From: Methanolinea sp.
Lineage (GTDB): Archaea; Halobacteriota; Methanomicrobia; Methanomicrobiales; Methanospirillaceae
Length of the DNA stretch: 64,000 nucleotides
Assembly: GCA_018262855.1 (NCBI GenBank)
Contig: JADFDO010000003.1
Location: 124,001-188,000, forward strand
Reading direction: 5' to 3'
The stretch's first letter is position 1. Each line of letters opens with the position of its first letter. This document shows, in pieces, positions 34,756 through 44,551 of this stretch. Made by a program: the position numbers and the translations under genes. The notes under the pieces are model-generated. The model was given only the letters and a program-made list of their open reading frames with translations. It made no database searches and was not told the DNA's origin.

Positions 34756-34907
34756 TGATCATCACTACTTCACAGGGGTAGAAAAAGGTTATGGATATGA
34801 ACGCGTTACCCATGATGCGGCTATGGATGCAAGAAATCGAGAAAAAAGACCTGAATATGAATAGAATATAAGAAAAAGGGTAATTCTTTGAAATTGCATT
34901 GATTGGC

Positions 34908-34917
34908 AAATATTTAT
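34908..34917 (+). promoter_or_regulatory. TATA box of the HTH-PAS gene
   Basis: AAATATTTAT is centred about 34 bp upstream of the ATG at 34947, which supports that start over the upstream ATG at 34899. Confidence 0.45.
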
Positions 34918-34946
34918 GGTGGGGTGGATTTGAACACATCACTGTT

Positions 34947-37472
34947 ATGATCCTTGATCAGGAAAAGATCACAAGGATAAAAAAATTGTTAAAGAGCCGG
35001 CCTAAAGGGCTGACCATTTCCGATATCTCCCAGATTCTCAAGCTCAACAGGAATTCAGTTGCGAAATACCTGGAAATACTCCTCATCACCGGACAGGTTG
35101 AGATGCGGCTTTATGGGAATGCCAAGGTCTATTACCTTTCCCAGCGGGTCCCCATCTCCTCCATGCTGAAATTTGCCACCGAGTTGATCCTGATACTTGA
35201 CACTGAGCAAAAGATCATCGATGTGAATGATAATTTCCTCTCGTTCTTCGGCCTTCAGAAAGAGAATCTTATTGGTAGTGACATCCGGGCAGAAAATATC
35301 CCGGGACTTGGAAAGATACCCTTTGATGCTCTTTCAGAAGAACCCGGGATGGTGGATGAGGGTAACATAGAGATCAGTGTTGCACGCAATGACAAGGAAT
35401 ACTGCCTTTCCCTGAAGATTGTTCCTACCGTCTTTGATGACGGGAGCAAAGGATCCACCCTGATCTTCGAGGATGTAACCCAGTCACGTGAATATGAGCA
35501 GAAACTGAAGATAAACGAGGCCAGGTACAGGGCTATCGTTGAGGATCAGACGGAGTTCATCTGCCGTTATAATAAGGATTTCATCATCACGTTTGTGAAC
35601 GAGGCAATATGCCAGTATTTCGGTAGATCAAATGAAGAGATCCTTGGCTCAAATTTCCTGTCTAATATTCATGAACGCGACCGTGAGTTTGTGAAGAATA
35701 ACATCCTCTCACTGAACCGGGAATGCCCGGTCCTCACCCTTGAAGAAAGGGTGATTGACCTGGAGGGGAGAACCCGGTGGCAACAGTGGACCAACCGGGC
35801 AATCTTTGATCAATCCCAAAATATCATTGAATATCAGGGTGTGGGACGCGACATTACCGAACGAAAGGAAGCTGAAGAGAACCTTCTGATTATGAATATG
35901 GCGATAGCGTCCTCCATCAACGGCATAGGTCTTGCCGATCTCGATGGGAGGATAACCTACGCGAATACTGCGTTCCTGAAAATATTCGGGGTAGCCTCGC
36001 TCGAAGAGATCCTTCACAAACCTATCGAATCGCTCGGCAATCCCAAAAATCCTGGTCCCGGGGTCAAGGACGTCTTACGGGGGCTCAGAGAAAAAGGATT
36101 ATGGAAGGGTGAAATCCTCGTGATAAGAAATGATGGGACGCAGGTTCACACCCACCATACCGCGAACATGATCAGGGACAACAAAGGGGCACCTATTGCG
36201 ATGATGTCCTCTTTTATTGACATCACTGAAAAAATGGAGGCTGAAAGAGAGATCCAGATAAAAAACACCGCAATTGAATCTGCAATGAACGGGATAGTCA
36301 TTTTCGATCCCAATCAAAAGTTAATTTATGCAAATCAGGAATTTCTCAAGATTTTTGGGGTACTTTCTCTTGATGACATGCTGAAACACCACATGGAAAA
36401 ATTTTCAAAAATCATTCAAAATATCTCGCCACCTTTTTTTGAGATTACGAAAGCACTCAATATCCAGGGAAAATTCAGCGGAGAACTCAAAGTAAAAATG
36501 CCCGATGAGGCTACAAGATTTTTCCAGGTCTCTGCAACAAGAGTGTGGGACAAAAAGGGAGAGCACCTCTGTAGTGTCGGCATATTCATGGACATCACCG
36601 ACCAGAAAGTCATCGAAAAGGCCCTTAAGACAACGTATGAAAAACTGCAGGATGCGATCGAGTTCATGCCCGATCCCACCTTCATCATAAACCGCGACAG
36701 GAAGGTGATCGCATGGAACAGGGCACTGGAGAGGATATCAGGCGTCAAAAGGAACGATGTACTCGGTACGAACACCTACTCACATGCCTTCGGTTTCCTT
36801 CAGGGAAAGAGGCCCATCCTTGTTGACATCATCGACCTGCCTGCGCACGAACTGGCAAAATCGTACCCTGCAGTCCGGAGGTTCGGCGACAGCATTTTTG
36901 TGGAGACACTCATCCCCGGAAGGCCTGATGAGAAAGGAATCTACCTGTGGGGCAAAGCCACACCACTCTTTGACAGCGAAGGACGCACAATAGGGGCCAT
37001 CGAGTCCTTCAGAGACATGTCTGAATGGAAAAAAGCGAAAGAATCGATGCAACCGACCAGGAATGCGACGGGAATAACTCCTGACCATGTCGCTTTTTCG
37101 TCAATGGGATTCTCCAATGGTTTGATCTGGCTTGATTCGGCGCTGGATCACCTCTCTGAAGGTGTGGCAATACTCGATAGTGACGCACGAATTATGAAAA
37201 TTAATCCCTCTTTTCTCTCCCTGCTTCATCGGGACAGGGAAGAGATGCACGGAAAAGATATCTTAAGTGTCTGCAACCCGGATGATAAATCCCAGGTTAT
37301 GGAGGTGCTGGACCGGACCAGAGAGAACCTGAAGAAATCGGAGATCATCAGGGTAAGACTTGGGCAGGCGACCCAGCCACTCGATGCCGAAATAACATCG
37401 CTCAAGGATGAGAAAGGGCACCATCTCGGTCACGTGATTGTCCTGGTCCAGACGATGCCCCTTCAGAGGTAG
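34947..37472 (+). CDS. HTH-domain protein with six PAS domains and no kinase
   Basis: An 841-residue cytosolic protein. Residues 1 to about 65 form a winged helix (LLKSRPKGLTISDISQILKLNRNSVAKYLEILLITGQVEMR). Six PAS-type sensor domains then follow at about 72-185, 186-315, 316-437, 438-562, 563-705 and 730-841, several ending in the usual ITERKEAEE-like linker. The protein ends in the last PAS, with no histidine-kinase (HisKA or HATPase) module and no membrane helices. It is therefore more likely a multi-input transcriptional regulator than a sensor kinase. Confidence 0.85.
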   Translation: MILDQEKITRIKKLLKSRPKGLTISDISQILKLNRNSVAKYLEILLITGQVEMRLYGNAKVYYLSQRVPISSMLKFATELILILDTEQKIIDVNDNFLSFFGLQKENLIGSDIRAENIPGLGKIPFDALSEEPGMVDEGNIEISVARNDKEYCLSLKIVPTVFDDGSKGSTLIFEDVTQSREYEQKLKINEARYRAIVEDQTEFICRYNKDFIITFVNEAICQYFGRSNEEILGSNFLSNIHERDREFVKNNILSLNRECPVLTLEERVIDLEGRTRWQQWTNRAIFDQSQNIIEYQGVGRDITERKEAEENLLIMNMAIASSINGIGLADLDGRITYANTAFLKIFGVASLEEILHKPIESLGNPKNPGPGVKDVLRGLREKGLWKGEILVIRNDGTQVHTHHTANMIRDNKGAPIAMMSSFIDITEKMEAEREIQIKNTAIESAMNGIVIFDPNQKLIYANQEFLKIFGVLSLDDMLKHHMEKFSKIIQNISPPFFEITKALNIQGKFSGELKVKMPDEATRFFQVSATRVWDKKGEHLCSVGIFMDITDQKVIEKALKTTYEKLQDAIEFMPDPTFIINRDRKVIAWNRALERISGVKRNDVLGTNTYSHAFGFLQGKRPILVDIIDLPAHELAKSYPAVRRFGDSIFVETLIPGRPDEKGIYLWGKATPLFDSEGRTIGAIESFRDMSEWKKAKESMQPTRNATGITPDHVAFSSMGFSNGLIWLDSALDHLSEGVAILDSDARIMKINPSFLSLLHRDREEMHGKDILSVCNPDDKSQVMEVLDRTRENLKKSEIIRVRLGQATQPLDAEITSLKDEKGHHLGHVIVLVQTMPLQR

Positions 37473-37954
37473 AATCCCTGGATATGGACAACCTCAAGGC
37501 TGTCTTTCGCTGCTGAATAAAGATCCAGTGGTTCTTCGTTGAGTTCGAGAAAGCGCCTTCCCCAGGGGACACTCTCAAGGATCTGGACAGCCTGCTCTGG
37601 CTCTCCCAGAATATAGAGAGCAGCAGCGAGAGCCTCAACCGACGAGAGACGCCAGGGTCTCCCGAAGTTTACTGGATTTGCGGCGACCAGGAACGGTAGC
37701 GCTCTCCTCCGTCTCCACGATCCATATGGTATGGCATCGAGGACTTCCCATGAACAGTCGAGGGCAGTAATGGAGCGGGCGATCCTGTCAGCGGGGGATA
37801 ATGCCTGCTCCGCAGTGGGATCAAGGAGGAGCGTGTTCCGGGGAATCCGTGAAAGCTTGGAGAGCACCCGGATAAGGCCCGAACGCTCAAGGCGCTTCAC
37901 GGTGCATTTCCGTGGATCGCAGCTGTTGTCCCTGAATGCGTAAAGGGGAATCAT
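37463..37954 (-). CDS. tsr3: Tsr3-like rRNA aminocarboxypropyltransferase (DUF367)
   Basis: Tsr3 adds the aminocarboxypropyl group of SAM to a hypermodified uridine of small-subunit rRNA. The 163-residue protein has DPRKCTVKRLERSGL, LLLDPTAEQALSPAD, LDCSWEVLD, LPFLVAANPVNFGRPWRLSSVEALAAALYILG, the hallmark pattern of DUF367/Tsr3. It overlaps the end of the PAS gene by 10 bp (tail to tail) and is divergent from the fusion gene at 37984. Confidence 0.87.
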   Translation of the reverse strand: MIPLYAFRDNSCDPRKCTVKRLERSGLIRVLSKLSRIPRNTLLLDPTAEQALSPADRIARSITALDCSWEVLDAIPYGSWRRRRALPFLVAANPVNFGRPWRLSSVEALAAALYILGEPEQAVQILESVPWGRRFLELNEEPLDLYSAAKDSLEVVHIQGFYL

Positions 37955-37983
37955 CTATCTCCTCTCCGTGTCTACTTTTATCA

Positions 37984-38844
37984 ATGTACGTGTTGGTGTG
38001 CCCCTGCATCCTGGATCCATCACTCAGAGCCCAGGGTATTACCAGGGAATCTGATCTTCAGGCGTTCAGGAGAGCATCAGAGCGCTGCCGCACATTCGGG
38101 CTCGAGATAGTTCCGCTTCCATGCCCGGAGACCCTCTATCTTGGGAAGGACAGGGAACCAGGAACATTCCTCGAGAGGCTTGACACGAAGGATTTCTCAT
38201 CTCTTGCAGAAAGGCTCGAAGAGGAAGTCAGGAAGATCATAGGAACTATGGGCCCCCCACTCTGCATCATTGGAGTCAACTCCTCTCCCACGTGCGGTGT
38301 TGATACGACGTATTATGGTGCTGATAACAAAGGCCCTTCGAAAAGAAAGGGGCGGGGGGTCTTCCTCAACCTATTTTCGGACATCCCTGCTCTGGATGTC
38401 ATGACATTCTCAAGATACCGGGTATACCTGGCAGCACCCCTCTTTTCATCTGCTGAGAGGCGTTTCAATGTCTGGCTCTCCGATCTGCTCCATGATCACC
38501 TTTTTGAAGTGTACCTGCCCCAGGATGCAGGTGATGATGGATGTCACAGGGGAAGGGAAGCCCAGCGGGATATTTTCGCCATGCACTGCGATGCGATGAC
38601 CCGCGTTGATACAGTGGTCGCAGTCATTGATGGTGCTGATGCCGATTCCGGCACCTCCTGGGAGATGGGGTACGCTTTCGCAAAAAACATACCAGTGATT
38701 GCGATCAGGACAGATTTCAGGCGGGCAGGAGTTCACGAGCATGTGAACCTTATGCTGGAACAATCGTCATGCGTGGTGAACACCGAGGAGGAACTGTTAA
38801 AGGCGCTGCAGTCTCCACTTCTTCTTGAACAACAGAAACAATGA
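37984..38844 (+). CDS. fusion of a DUF523/TudS-like desulfurase domain and a nucleoside 2-deoxyribosyltransferase domain
   Basis: A 286-residue two-domain protein. Residues 1 to about 135 resemble DUF523, the thiouracil desulfurase (TudS) family: VCPCILDPSLRAQG, PLPCPETLYLG and NSSPTCGVD give the three conserved cysteine regions that hold its [4Fe-4S] cluster. Residues of about 140-286 resemble nucleoside 2-deoxyribosyltransferases: YLAAPLFSSAERRFN, then VVAVIDGADADSGTSWEMGYAFAKNIPVIAIRTDFR. The pairing suggests handling of modified nucleobases (inference). The start at 37984 is the first ATG before the Cys motif; a frame-open ATG at 37936 exists. Confidence 0.78.
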   Translation: MYVLVCPCILDPSLRAQGITRESDLQAFRRASERCRTFGLEIVPLPCPETLYLGKDREPGTFLERLDTKDFSSLAERLEEEVRKIIGTMGPPLCIIGVNSSPTCGVDTTYYGADNKGPSKRKGRGVFLNLFSDIPALDVMTFSRYRVYLAAPLFSSAERRFNVWLSDLLHDHLFEVYLPQDAGDDGCHRGREAQRDIFAMHCDAMTRVDTVVAVIDGADADSGTSWEMGYAFAKNIPVIAIRTDFRRAGVHEHVNLMLEQSSCVVNTEEELLKALQSPLLLEQQKQ

Positions 38845-38865: not shown

Positions 38866-40401
38866 ATGCCAAAAAGGAAAACACAGGGATTAGAACAGGG
38901 GAACGAATCTTATAAAGAGATCTTGACGGTTCCGGATCTTGACCTGAAAAAGGAACGCCCCGCATCCCAGGGCATTCCCGGAACCTTCTCAAGGATGAAA
39001 AATGCCCTCTACAATAGCAGGTACATCCAGATCCTTCTTGTTTTGACCGTCATTGCGGCAGTTCTCAGGCTTTATGCTCTTGATCTTTCATCGCTATGGC
39101 TCGATGAGGCTCTCACCTACAGGTTCTCGCTCTCTCCATTTTCAGACTACTGGGGGCTGATCAGTGCAGGTGGAGAGGTGAGTCCTCCGCTTTTTTTCTG
39201 GCTGGAACATTTCATGCTTTACCTGGGTCATACTGAGACCACGCTCCGGCTCTTACCGGCGGTCTTCGGGATTCTCACCGTTCCGGTGATCTATTTTCTT
39301 GGCAGCGAATCGGTCGACAGGAATGCTGGTCTTCTTGCCGCCGCGCTCCTTGCGTTCTCACCTTTCCATCTGTTCTATTCGCAGGAGGCGAGAATGTATT
39401 CCCTGGTGCTCTTATTCCTGGCATGTGCCCTTTATTTCTTCTTCCGGGCATCGAAGGAGGAGGGTATTAAGTGGTGGCTGTTATTTGGTCTCTTTTCAGG
39501 ACTGGCATTCTGGACACATTTTTACTCGGGCCTGCTCATTAGTGGAGTGTACCTGTGGTATCTTGGGGTGTCATTGAAGAGAAAGGCGAAGATACCTGAT
39601 CTGAAAGGTGCGGCATATTCCCTGGCAATCCTGGTCCTCATCTGCCTCCCGCTCCTCGCAATATCATGGACAGCACTGTTTCGCATGACCTCAAGGGCAC
39701 CCACCTGGGGCAATCGTGGCATTGAAGTTCTCACCACGACATTCTCACACTTCTCGGGGTATTCAGCACCTATTGCAGTCCTTTTCGTTGCCCTTTTTCT
39801 CATCGGCATGTACATGCTCTTGAAAACCCGACGTGACACCTTTACTCTCTTCACTGTGCTTTTCGTCCTTTTTCTCATCGGCAATGTTGCACTCTCGTAT
39901 CTGATGCCGATGGCTCCCCGGTACTTCATTGGCATTCTTCCTGTTTTTTTTATCGGGATAGCATCGTCATATTTTGTCGTATCCCGTGTCAAACCAGACA
40001 GGAGGATCATACCCATATGCCTCGCCCTCATAATCCTGGTGAGTATTCCCGGCCTTATACATCATTATACGGTTGTTGAGAAGGAGGACTGGAGGTATGT
40101 GGCAGATCTTCTTGCGAAGAGCACCATGCCCGGGGATACTGTCGTCGTCATGCCGTCATATATGGCCAATCCATTCGATTTCTACTATGACAACGTGAGC
40201 GATGGGACAAGAGAGATCGGGCTCTCCCGTGAAGATGATCTTGTTTTGCTCACTTCCCAGAAGCAGAAAGAGAAGATATTTATCGCTTTCACTGACGATC
40301 TCAATGCAGCGGATCCGTCAGGGAAGGCGATCCAGTGGATGAAAGAGCATGCGCAGTTTGCGGGAAACCAGCGGGGCGTCTATGTATTCGTGGTGGTATG
40401 A
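38866..40401 (+). CDS. GT39/ArnT-type membrane glycosyltransferase, copy 1
   Basis: A 511-residue polytopic membrane protein of the dolichyl-phosphate-sugar glycosyltransferase group (GT-C fold). After a charged N-terminus it has a conserved acidic loop SSLWLDEALTYRFS, FLGSESVDRNAG, SPFHLFYSQEARMYSL, and about a dozen hydrophobic helices. The C-terminal loop contains FDFYYDNVSDGTREIG. It probably transfers a sugar from a polyprenyl-phosphate donor to an extracytoplasmic acceptor; the acceptor is unknown. It is a tandem paralogue of the next gene. Confidence 0.87.
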   Translation: MPKRKTQGLEQGNESYKEILTVPDLDLKKERPASQGIPGTFSRMKNALYNSRYIQILLVLTVIAAVLRLYALDLSSLWLDEALTYRFSLSPFSDYWGLISAGGEVSPPLFFWLEHFMLYLGHTETTLRLLPAVFGILTVPVIYFLGSESVDRNAGLLAAALLAFSPFHLFYSQEARMYSLVLLFLACALYFFFRASKEEGIKWWLLFGLFSGLAFWTHFYSGLLISGVYLWYLGVSLKRKAKIPDLKGAAYSLAILVLICLPLLAISWTALFRMTSRAPTWGNRGIEVLTTTFSHFSGYSAPIAVLFVALFLIGMYMLLKTRRDTFTLFTVLFVLFLIGNVALSYLMPMAPRYFIGILPVFFIGIASSYFVVSRVKPDRRIIPICLALIILVSIPGLIHHYTVVEKEDWRYVADLLAKSTMPGDTVVVMPSYMANPFDFYYDNVSDGTREIGLSREDDLVLLTSQKQKEKIFIAFTDDLNAADPSGKAIQWMKEHAQFAGNQRGVYVFVVV

Positions 40402-40497: not shown

Positions 40498-41997
40498 ATG
40501 GGGAAGAGGATAAAAAAACCACGAGATGAATCATCCGAACCAGAAACAACGGGAACTCATCGAGAAGTGAACGAAGAGAATAAAATCTGGCATTATATCA
40601 GGGCAATCAAGACCGATTTTGCACTCCAGATCCTTGTTGCGCTCGTAATCATTGGTTTTTTTTTACGGTTCTACCATCTCGGCTTCAATTCTCTCTGGCT
40701 TGATGAGGCATTCACCTATTATTCATCCAATGAATCCATTCTCCAGATATGGGAAACGACGAAAACCGGTGATTTTCATCCGCCTTTGTTCCATTGGATC
40801 GAGCATTTCATGCTCTATTTAGGGAATAATGAATTTATTCTTCGCTTTATTCCAGCTGTGGTAGGAACTCTCACAATCCCACTCTTTTACATCTTCGGAA
40901 AAGAAGTCATGAATAAGAATGTCGGCGTAATCAGTGCAGCACTTCTAACCTTTTCTCCTTTTCATATTTATTATTCGCAGGAAGCGTACTCCTACTCACT
41001 TGTCGTTTTCGTATTTTCACTTATTCTCATCTTTTATATGAGAGCAATATGTGATAACAAAAGAAAGGACTGGATTATTGTAGGGTTGTTATCAGCTGTT
41101 GGTTTTTGGATTCACTATTATGTGGCAATACCGATCGCAGTCCTCTTCTTGCATGCAATTCTCACAAAAATTCCTGAATTTCAAAAAGACAAGAGATCTT
41201 GGAAGAATCCCCTGCTTTCGTTGATATTATTCCTGGTGTGTATTGCGCCTCTTATACTGGTGGTTATCGAAAGGTATTTTACACTCACATCAAAACCGCC
41301 CACGTATGGTGTATTTGGCCTTGCATTAATTACAGAAACTTTTATCCGGTTTTCGGCCCTTACTCCGTTGGTCGCCGTTGTATTTGTGTTGCTGTTCGTA
41401 ATTGGGCTGTTTTCACTTTATAAAATCCGGAAATCCTACTGTCTTCTCTTTATTCTTCTGATAACGATTCCCTTGGGATTGAGTGTCGCTATTTCCTCGA
41501 TAATGACAATGAATCCCCGTTACCTGCTCTATCTTCTGGCAATTTTTTACACTGGTATTGCCAGCAGTTATTGTATGCTCCCCAGATTTCCCTTAAAAAA
41601 ATGGGTAGTTCTTCTCATTGTCATTGGAATCGCTGCAATTAATGCACCTATCCTTGCTGGATACTATCAAACACCTATTAAGGACGACTGGAGATCATAC
41701 AGCAGTATTATCGCGGAAAATACCAGAGAGGGGGACTTCATCATATTAATACCCGAATACAATAAAATGCCCTTCGGATATTACTATGACAATGTAACCG
41801 ATCACACTTCTGTATTTGGTGCGACCACTCCCGACCAAATTGAACAGATCGTTGCACAACAAGGAAATAATACTATAATTTATGTTCTTACGAACGATAT
41901 TACCGCCGCAAATCCTGAAGGGGATACAGTGAACTGGCTAAACGAGAATACTGAAGTTGTAGGGCAGTATACGAACATTTACACCTTCATATCCTGA
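40498..41997 (+). CDS. GT39/ArnT-type membrane glycosyltransferase, copy 2
   Basis: A 499-residue polytopic paralogue of the preceding protein, with NSLWLDEAFTYYSS, YIFGKEVMNKNVG, SPFHIYYSQEAYSYSL and a C-terminal YYYDNVTDHTSVFG. The match over the whole length, including the closing NDITAANPEGDTVNWL segment, shows a tandem duplication. Its DNA is visibly richer in A and T than copy 1 and most of the window, so it may be a horizontally acquired or fast-evolving copy. Confidence 0.87.
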   Translation: MGKRIKKPRDESSEPETTGTHREVNEENKIWHYIRAIKTDFALQILVALVIIGFFLRFYHLGFNSLWLDEAFTYYSSNESILQIWETTKTGDFHPPLFHWIEHFMLYLGNNEFILRFIPAVVGTLTIPLFYIFGKEVMNKNVGVISAALLTFSPFHIYYSQEAYSYSLVVFVFSLILIFYMRAICDNKRKDWIIVGLLSAVGFWIHYYVAIPIAVLFLHAILTKIPEFQKDKRSWKNPLLSLILFLVCIAPLILVVIERYFTLTSKPPTYGVFGLALITETFIRFSALTPLVAVVFVLLFVIGLFSLYKIRKSYCLLFILLITIPLGLSVAISSIMTMNPRYLLYLLAIFYTGIASSYCMLPRFPLKKWVVLLIVIGIAAINAPILAGYYQTPIKDDWRSYSSIIAENTREGDFIILIPEYNKMPFGYYYDNVTDHTSVFGATTPDQIEQIVAQQGNNTIIYVLTNDITAANPEGDTVNWLNENTEVVGQYTNIYTFIS

Positions 41998-42901: not shown

Positions 42902-44551
42902 TTATTTTCTCGCATACAGGATGATTGAGACTCCCCATCCACGGGCTTCAAAAAATGAATCAAGTCTGATACCAAGGCTGAGCAGTGAGCGGTTCTGGAG
43001 GAGGGCAAAAAGAGGGGAGAGGAAGAAAATTGTCCTTGTCGAACATGAAGAGAAATCTTTGAAGAATGAACACAATTCCCCCGTAGAGAAGAACATGAGG
43101 TGAGTCTCGCCATAATTCCTTCCCCGGCCAAAGAGGTCCCATAATACCTCGTATAATCCCCATATGGAATGGTCATTCGGGGTAGTAATAACGACCTCTC
43201 CGTCAGGAACAAGTATTCTCCGGATTTCATTGAGCATCTCATGTGGCTGGGGAAGATGCTCGATTATCTCTGCGCTTATGACCTGATTGATGCAGTTGTC
43301 ACGGATAGGTAGGTGATGCACGTCTGCCTGTATGAAGGAGGCCCGGGGGATACTCATTCCATTGGCATAGCGCAATGCTTCACGGTTGATATCAATTCCG
43401 AGAGCCATTCCCTGTCTTTGTTTCTGGAGTTCAGCAACCTGCACCCCGCTTCCACAGCCTATGTCAATCAATACGCCCTCTCTACCGACATTGAATGAAT
43501 CGGAAATCTCCCTGGTTTTCCTCTGTTGAAAATAGCGCTGTACCATGAGATCCGAATGGAACGCCCGGTCATCGATATCACCGGGAGTCGCCTGGTAGTG
43601 GTCAATTAGGTAGGTTTTTCCTTTCGATTTGAAGAAAAATTCCCTGGTACCAATAGCATCAACCAGGATCTCACTTCCTCGTACAAGGAAGGCAAAAGAC
43701 GCGGAAAGGGCAACAGGAATACCGATCAATGAGAAGAACGTAATTATAGCTGCTTCCTGGATGCCGATTCCTGCGGGTGAAAGAGGGATAAGCGAGAACA
43801 GGGTAAGCAGGGGGGAGAGGAAAAAGGCATCGAGAGGGGAGTGGAAGACAAGATGGAGTGACATGCCGATAAAGAACCACTGGAGTCCCCGGAGCAGCCA
43901 ACCCAGGAAGGAGATTCCAAGAATCATCGGGAAGAACTGCTGTATCCTTCTTCCCTGCATCCCAAAATCGAGGATTTTTCCCCCAATCTTCCATCCTGAA
44001 ATCAACACCTTGAGAAAATTAGGAGGATAGAGAAGAAGGAAATAAGCCCCGAAGATTATCGCGATAAGGACTATCGTGAGAATGAGGATATAACTGATTT
44101 GAGGAGAGAGGAGGCTTGCGTAGAGGTAGGAAATACCGATAAGAGCGACGGAGACCTTGAAAAGAAGATCATAGATATAGGTCGAGGTGATGGTCGCTGT
44201 CCCGGCATTAAGGGGGATGCCTCTTTTCCGCAGTGCCTGGGCAGTATAGAGATATCCACTCCGGAGCGGTGTGAAATCCGAAAGGATCATCCCTGCCATA
44301 TGCGCCCAGAACACGAATTTCAGCCTTATTTTCTGGCCCTGATGAGCAAGAAGCCGTTTGAGCCTGATTACCATCAGGACATTATTGAGGAAGTAGCATA
44401 CGAGTGCCAGCAGGAAAAAACGGAGATCCAGCGTGAAAAGAATGTTTAAAAATTCTTGTGCGGAAATAAACAGGAGTATTGCGAAAAGGAGGACTATTCC
44501 AATAAAAATCTGGATGAGAAAAACGCATCTTTTTTTCCATTCACTGGTCAT
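42902..44551 (-). CDS. fusion of an LPG-synthase-type membrane domain and a SAM-dependent methyltransferase
   Basis: A 549-residue protein with two modules. Residues 1 to about 305 carry many membrane helices and resemble the transmembrane part of lysylphosphatidylglycerol synthase (UPF0104), including FTPLRSGYLYTAQALRKRG and SPAGIGIQEAA. Residues of about 345-549 form a class I methyltransferase with the SAM motif VLIDIGCGSG near 356 and ADVHHLPIRDNCINQVIS. The domain boundary is in one uninterrupted frame, so this is a real fusion. Lipid-linked glycan translocation plus methylation is a guess. Confidence 0.8.
   Translation of the reverse strand: MTSEWKKRCVFLIQIFIGIVLLFAILLFISAQEFLNILFTLDLRFFLLALVCYFLNNVLMVIRLKRLLAHQGQKIRLKFVFWAHMAGMILSDFTPLRSGYLYTAQALRKRGIPLNAGTATITSTYIYDLLFKVSVALIGISYLYASLLSPQISYILILTIVLIAIIFGAYFLLLYPPNFLKVLISGWKIGGKILDFGMQGRRIQQFFPMILGISFLGWLLRGLQWFFIGMSLHLVFHSPLDAFFLSPLLTLFSLIPLSPAGIGIQEAAIITFFSLIGIPVALSASFAFLVRGSEILVDAIGTREFFFKSKGKTYLIDHYQATPGDIDDRAFHSDLMVQRYFQQRKTREISDSFNVGREGVLIDIGCGSGVQVAELQKQRQGMALGIDINREALRYANGMSIPRASFIQADVHHLPIRDNCINQVISAEIIEHLPQPHEMLNEIRRILVPDGEVVITTPNDHSIWGLYEVLWDLFGRGRNYGETHLMFFSTGELCSFFKDFSSCSTRTIFFLSPLFALLQNRSLLSLGIRLDSFFEARGWGVSIILYARK

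Follow-up and report, generated by a model that had tools for sequence, protein, structure and literature searches.

Can a single archaeal protein both strip sulfur from a nucleobase and act on the bond between a base and its sugar? The question is raised by a gene in a 64,000-nucleotide stretch of DNA from Methanolinea sp. (contig JADFDO010000003.1, positions 124,001 to 188,000; here called the window), which a first-pass annotation, made from the letters alone, read as a TudS-like desulfurase fused to a nucleoside 2-deoxyribosyltransferase (NDT). The host genome is a draft of 2.29 Mb in 31 contigs that is 99% complete, and a genome scan gave a Methanolinea MAG with 74% identity as the nearest named relative.

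Two domains in one reading frame

The gene forms a single uninterrupted frame from the ATG at 37984 to the stop at 38844, and the following parts were assigned from the ORF, the orthologue alignment, profiles and folds:

37984..38844, + strand: TudS-NDT fusion gene, 286 aa (ORF and orthologue alignment)
37984..38388, + strand: TudS-type desulfidase domain, residues 1-135 (NF045597 and TudS crystal-structure fold)
38407..38823, + strand: nucleoside 2-deoxyribosyltransferase-type domain, residues 142-280 (PF05014; NDT structures at Z 19.0)

Use of a second in-frame ATG further upstream, at 37936, would run into the 5' end of Tsr3, the divergent neighbour, and the orthologues align from the Met at 37984, so that the start was placed there. 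The two-domain AlphaFold2 model of the whole protein is confident (pLDDT 94.3, pTM 0.90). The fusion itself is confirmed. Among the relatives of an order-level sample a match is present in 55 of 61, and in 48 of the 49 of good quality, nearly all across both domains, so that an assembly artefact is not its source. Both domains are retained in one chain nearly universally across six families of the order, and Methanomicrobiales-type genomes gave 64 distinct orthologues of full length.

The closest model for the N-terminal domain is NCBIfam NF045597 (CD3072 family TudS-related putative desulfidase), which is matched over residues 3-133 at E 3.8e-16, and at E 6e-17 when the domain is searched alone. 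This model is also the closest profile for the stand-alone archaeal relatives and is matched by all 18 TudS-domain sequences of alignment A2. The score of 59-62 bits lies below the equivalog cut-off of 130, so that the domain is, as judged from its sequence, related to the CD3072 family but not a member by the cut-off rule; unlike that family, which is itself named as a putative desulfidase only, it is part of a fusion. The match to PF04463 (TudS; residues 38-131, E 8.7e-5, 23.0 bits) falls under the Pfam cut-off of 34.7, although 54 of the 88 aligned proteins were matched at E 0.01; automatic annotation therefore likely names the gene a plain deoxyribosyltransferase and misses the desulfidase half. 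When the TudS half was folded separately (pLDDT 90.9), Foldseek returned no significant match, but structural re-alignment did match TudS: all listed TudS crystal entries reached Z 9.2-9.4 over 127 residues (rmsd 3.6-3.7), and the next unrelated structure followed at Z 5.3. PDB chains searched with the TudS-domain profile gave no match by sequence.

The C-terminal half passes the cut-off of PF05014 (residues 147-257, E 3.8e-21, 75.8 bits against 28.8) and also matches PF15891. Structural alignment of its model gave Z 19.0 with the Desulfotalea 2'-deoxyribosyltransferase and 17.5-13 with other NDTs. Both domain assignments of the first-pass annotation are thus borne out.

Active-site positions of both domains

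Conservation was counted over the 64 fusions, which extend down to ~50% identity. The positions that correspond to sites of known enzymes are as follows, all on the + strand:

38005..38007: codon of Cys8, the counterpart of the cluster ligand Cys10 in TudS_A, conserved in 64/64
38026..38028: codon of Arg15, matched by its spacing from the Cys to the phosphate-binding Arg17 of TudS_A, invariant
38122..38130: codons of Cys47-Pro48-Glu49, in which the invariant Cys and Glu correspond to Cys43 and the catalytic Glu45 of TudS_A
38284..38295: Ser101-Pro102-Thr103-Cys104 codons, equivalent of TudS_A Ser101/Ser103/Cys104, position 103 variable
38425..38427: codon of Tyr148, the counterpart of Tyr7 in LlNDT and CtNDT, invariant
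38584..38586: codon of His201, at the place of LlNDT Asp72, CtNDT Asp62 and DNPH1 Asp80, never Asp in the fusions
38644..38664: Asp221 to Glu227 codons, equivalent of LlNDT Asp92 and the nucleophile Glu98, invariant
38746..38754: Asn255-Leu-Met257 codons, the NLM motif that in NDTs binds the sugar of the neighbouring subunit, Asn and Met invariant

The LlNDT sequence served the alignment register only. In the NDT half the invariant residues are Tyr148, Gln180, Asp209, Asp221, Glu227, Asn255 and Met257, and the catalytic Glu of deoxyribosyltransferases, the lack of which on alignment would have spoken against the first-pass annotation, is accordingly present as Glu227. The fold, the Tyr, the Asp, the nucleophile Glu and the NLM motif are shared with known NDTs (Desulfotalea 7o62, Bacillus 6evs, Chroococcidiopsis CtNDT, LlNDT), which differ in that they carry no TudS domain and in the Asp72 position; LlNDT and CtNDT have an Asp there (Asp72 and Asp62), 26 residues ahead of the nucleophile. 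In DNPH1 and NDTs this Asp contacts the base or supplies its proton, whereas the fusions have His (35), Asn (23), Cys (5) or Leu (1) at position 201, and stand-alone archaeal copies have Asn, Asp, Cys or His. Its loss does not exclude activity, since the Trypanosoma NDT has Asn at the Asp72 position. A reading of sugar preference from single residues, with Tyr148 pointing to deoxyribose and loss of the Asp to tolerance of ribose, was dropped; in published work neither the D62N nor the Y7F/D72N mutant acquired activity on ribonucleosides.

In TudS_A the cluster is held by Cys10, Cys43 and Cys104 and catalysis relies on Glu45, Ser101 and Ser103, while Arg17 contacts the phosphate in docking (PMC10611767). 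Correspondingly, Cys8, Arg15, Cys47, Glu49, Ser101 and Cys104 are invariant in the TudS half of the fusions, so that the three cysteine regions had been recognized correctly; the three cluster Cys are also kept in the stand-alone relatives of alignment A2. With TudS (DUF523Vcz, PDB 6z92-6z96 and 6zw9; a thiouracil/4-thio-UMP desulfidase) the fusion therefore shares the fold, the three cluster Cys, the catalytic Glu, the first Ser and the phosphate-site Arg, but differs from it by an identity of only 17%, by its extra C-terminal enzyme domain, by its place below the Pfam cut-off, and by the Ser103 position, which is often not Ser. Indeed, this position has drifted to Thr (41, including the window protein), Ala (9), Cys (5) or Val (3), with Ser in 6, while stand-alone archaeal relatives have Ser. 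In RudS, activity is lost on mutation of the Glu or of either Ser, and an Arg is important for orienting the Glu (PMC11417400); Arg57, conserved in 98% of the fusions, is a candidate for this Arg. Since the second catalytic Ser is not kept, the domain is labelled TudS-type and not as a confirmed TudS desulfidase. Altogether 12 of the 15 literature sites of TudS/RudS and NDTs fall on the 45 columns that are invariant over the 64 fusions; a hypergeometric estimate, which takes no account of relatedness, puts the chance of this at ~2e-8. Because the active-site positions of both domains are invariant at such identities, both sites appear to be under selection.

Distribution and gene setting

In a scan of 84,980 species genomes the fusion was found only in records named Methanolinea, Methanoregula, Methanoregulaceae, Methanomicrobiaceae or Methanomicrobiales; the scan used six short peptides of the window protein, by which remote bacterial fusions would be missed. 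In a phylum sample, sister lineages have TudS and NDT as separate genes, and several have one alone. Family f8, which would correspond to Methanosarcinaceae-like genomes, has an NDT and, in part of its genera, a TudS relative as distant genes (e.g., at 3.05 Mb and 2.13 Mb in G178). Outside the order, both families occur in 31 genomes, TudS only in 15, PF05014 only in 72 and neither in 122, so that TudS and any PF05014 protein co-occur above expectation (odds ratio 3.5, p 2e-4, uncorrected for relatedness).

Within the order each domain has also been found without the other. G038 and G048 have an NDT and no TudS match, and probably lost TudS, since both nest inside the fusion clade of the NDT tree (support 99/96). 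G013 has a TudS half without a recognizable NDT; at its locus (L056, 2528-3181) the three Cys, the Glu and the first Ser are present, and the C-terminal tail, unlike NDT, possibly reflects domain replacement or decay. A broken fusion was seen in the single-contig genome G022 (L098, 2970-3936), where the NDT part occurs twice in overlapping pieces, the second from about residue 189 on. The nearest outgroup of the fusion clade is an Archaeoglobus-type stand-alone pair, L064 and L065 (support 90/87, a node that is not strong). As the tree forces two label changes, as one gain and one loss would, it is simplest to assume that the domains were fused once and that losses came later.

In the host genome the fusion gene is the only match to PF05014 and the only match to PF04463, and is thus the sole detectable TudS and NDT gene. 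ThiI is present, so that 4-thiouridine (s4U) should be made, and decay of tRNA should yield 4-thio-UMP. AMP phosphorylase and one PRK-family gene are present as well, while models for UPRTase and thymidine kinase gave no match in this 99% complete draft, in which positive controls did match and absence is not thereby proven. Free uracil or deoxyuridine would thus have no obvious classical route of re-use, which favours desulfuration at the nucleotide level.

The one gene that is widely conserved beside the fusion is its divergent neighbour:

37463..37954, - strand: Tsr3/DUF367 gene, of the rRNA aminocarboxypropyltransferase family
37955..37983, no strand: gap of 29 bp that separates the start codons of the pair, ~28-33 bp long at most loci

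At most loci of the order, Tsr3/DUF367 and the fusion gene are transcribed away from each other, usually with ~28-33 bp between the start codons; at some loci the spacing is wider, or unmeasurable since the stop-to-stop ORFs overlap. Tsr3 was absent from the fetched stretch at two fusion loci (L084 and L085) and was not at any fetched stand-alone locus from outside the order, and it ties the fusion gene to RNA modification only by position. Two ordinary leadered promoters would not fit into a gap of ~30 bp, so that the pair likely has leaderless transcripts, with promoter elements inside each other's start region. An operon with salvage genes was sought around the fusion loci and was not found. 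Further genes of the window were viewed by eye: 38866-40401 and 40498-41997 encode adjacent similar membrane proteins, of which the first matches models of PMT_2-type mannosyltransferases and the second appears to be its paralogue; 42902-44551 (- strand) is a single 549-aa frame with a multi-pass flippase/synthase-like membrane part and a SAM-methyltransferase-like part; and 34899-37472 (+ strand; 857 aa) has a winged-helix-like N-terminal part and many PAS-like repeats, with no obvious kinase end.

Possible roles of the fusion

The reading preferred here, for which the prospects are evenly balanced, is that of a bifunctional house-cleaning enzyme with both domains active, which would act on pyrimidine nucleosides or nucleotides that carry sulfur or another modification. 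It is in line with the domain and fold matches, the invariant sites including Arg15, the presence of ThiI, the status as sole TudS and NDT gene, and the co-occurrence outside the order. Substrates would arise from turnover of tRNA bearing ThiI-made s4U. We infer that Cys8, Cys47 and Cys104 hold a [4Fe-4S] cluster, the free iron of which would take the sulfur of 4-thio-UMP, 4-thiouridine or 4-thiouracil. Glu49, with the help of Ser101, would then drive water onto the base while the sulfur stays on the cluster, as proposed for TudS. In the NDT domain, Glu227, placed by Tyr148, would attack C1' of the nucleoside to form a glycosyl-enzyme, with Asn255 and Met257 from the neighbouring subunit binding the sugar, which would pass to another base or to water. 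Co-expression and proximity may be the reason for the fusion.

Several observations count against this bifunctional role. RudS needs the equivalent of Ser103 for its activity, yet 17 of the 64 fusions have Ala, Cys or Val at this position; the base-contacting Asp of DNPH1 and NDTs is replaced in all of them; relatives have either domain on its own; Tsr3 belongs to rRNA modification and not to salvage; and AMP phosphorylase alone could release the base from NMPs. Furthermore, TudS prefers the nucleotide 4-thio-UMP and the NDT site is of nucleoside type, so that the two domains may not share a substrate; together with the separate evolution of the domains, this leaves the feeding of one domain by the other not supported directly. 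Of the proposed recycling route, plausibility stands (ThiI is present, the phosphate-site Arg is invariant and the fusion is order-wide), while tight coupling of two steps does not fit with the unfused and often single genes in other archaea of the phylum and the loss of each domain alone within the order.

The main rival, itself a tentative but serious contender, is that two independent enzymes share one chain, with TudS acting on s4U-derived nucleotides and the NDT domain on an unrelated nucleoside, e.g., a purine ribonucleoside; the fusion would then be a frozen accident that descent and co-expression have preserved. An example of such an NDT-type enzyme is AvNRT, the single-domain N-ribosyltransferase of Archaeoglobus veneficus, a working archaeal relative of the NDT half (PMC7308715) that lies near the fusion clade in the tree. 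L065, of the Archaeoglobus-like pair that is the nearest outgroup, has the DGECID, TDYR and CEAEREFNIKVAEFL stretches quoted for this purine ribosyltransferase, and stand-alone copies lie apart, often one without the other; G038, G048 and G013 have single domains as well. AvNRT differs from the fusions in that it is unfused, uses purine ribonucleosides and keeps Asp62. Against this rival, AvNRT has Phe7 (PMC7308715) where the fusions have Tyr148, and both the near-universal retention of the two domains in one chain over six families and the positive association of the two families outside the order suggest a functional link.

Improbable is a role of the NDT-type domain as a nucleoside 5'-monophosphate N-glycosidase like DNPH1/RCL or MilB, which would take the base off 4-thio-UMP or 4-thio-dUMP, with TudS desulfurating the remainder. 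DNPH1 (Z 14.2) and MilB (Z 13.2) belong to the same fold superfamily, and a substrate would be shared through the preference of TudS for 4-thio-UMP, but NDT structures rank first (Z 19.0-15.7 for the best four families) and the nucleoside-type Asn-x-Met, found in NDTs that lack the phosphate pocket of DNPH1, is invariant. Given this nucleoside-type sugar site, of the two reactions put forward by the first-pass annotation, exchange of the base and cutting from a nucleotide, the latter is the less likely half. Similarly improbable is a role of the NDT-type domain as a substrate-binding module that, like DUF1722 in the known tRNA-binding TudS fusion RudS (PMC11417400), would steer the TudS reaction to whole tRNA or some other large RNA, since a pure binder would not need the invariant Glu227, Tyr148, Asp221, Asn255 and Met257 and no RNA-binding feature was seen, even though the divergent gene conserved beside the fusion belongs to RNA modification.

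With RudS the bifunctional enzyme would share the principle of a TudS domain joined to a second domain, but the partner differs: a profile search found no DUF1722 in the fusion protein, where an enzyme-type NDT-family domain (PF05014) takes its place. TudS sequences have been reported as 58.9% single-domain and 40.1% fused with DUF1722 (PMC11417400), and a literature search mostly outside the subscription journals found no paper that names a TudS-NDT fusion or a deoxyribosyltransferase in Methanomicrobiales. TudS-NDT would thus be a new combination of two known kinds of enzyme that is conserved across one order, with a predicted function. A bolder and rather unlikely version sees an order-wide archaeal enzyme that desulfurates and de- or re-glycosylates thio-uridines for salvage or detoxification in methanogens with no match to UPRTase or thymidine kinase, with the change from Asp to His, Asn or Cys suiting the base site to a thio- or ribo-substrate.

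For the biology of these methanogens, the fusion connects an orphan family related to TudS with the glycosyl chemistry of nucleosides and gives a testable function to a gene of nearly every sampled Methanomicrobiales-type genome. Next to RudS it would be a second fusion of TudS, in which the partner is an enzyme and not a binding module.
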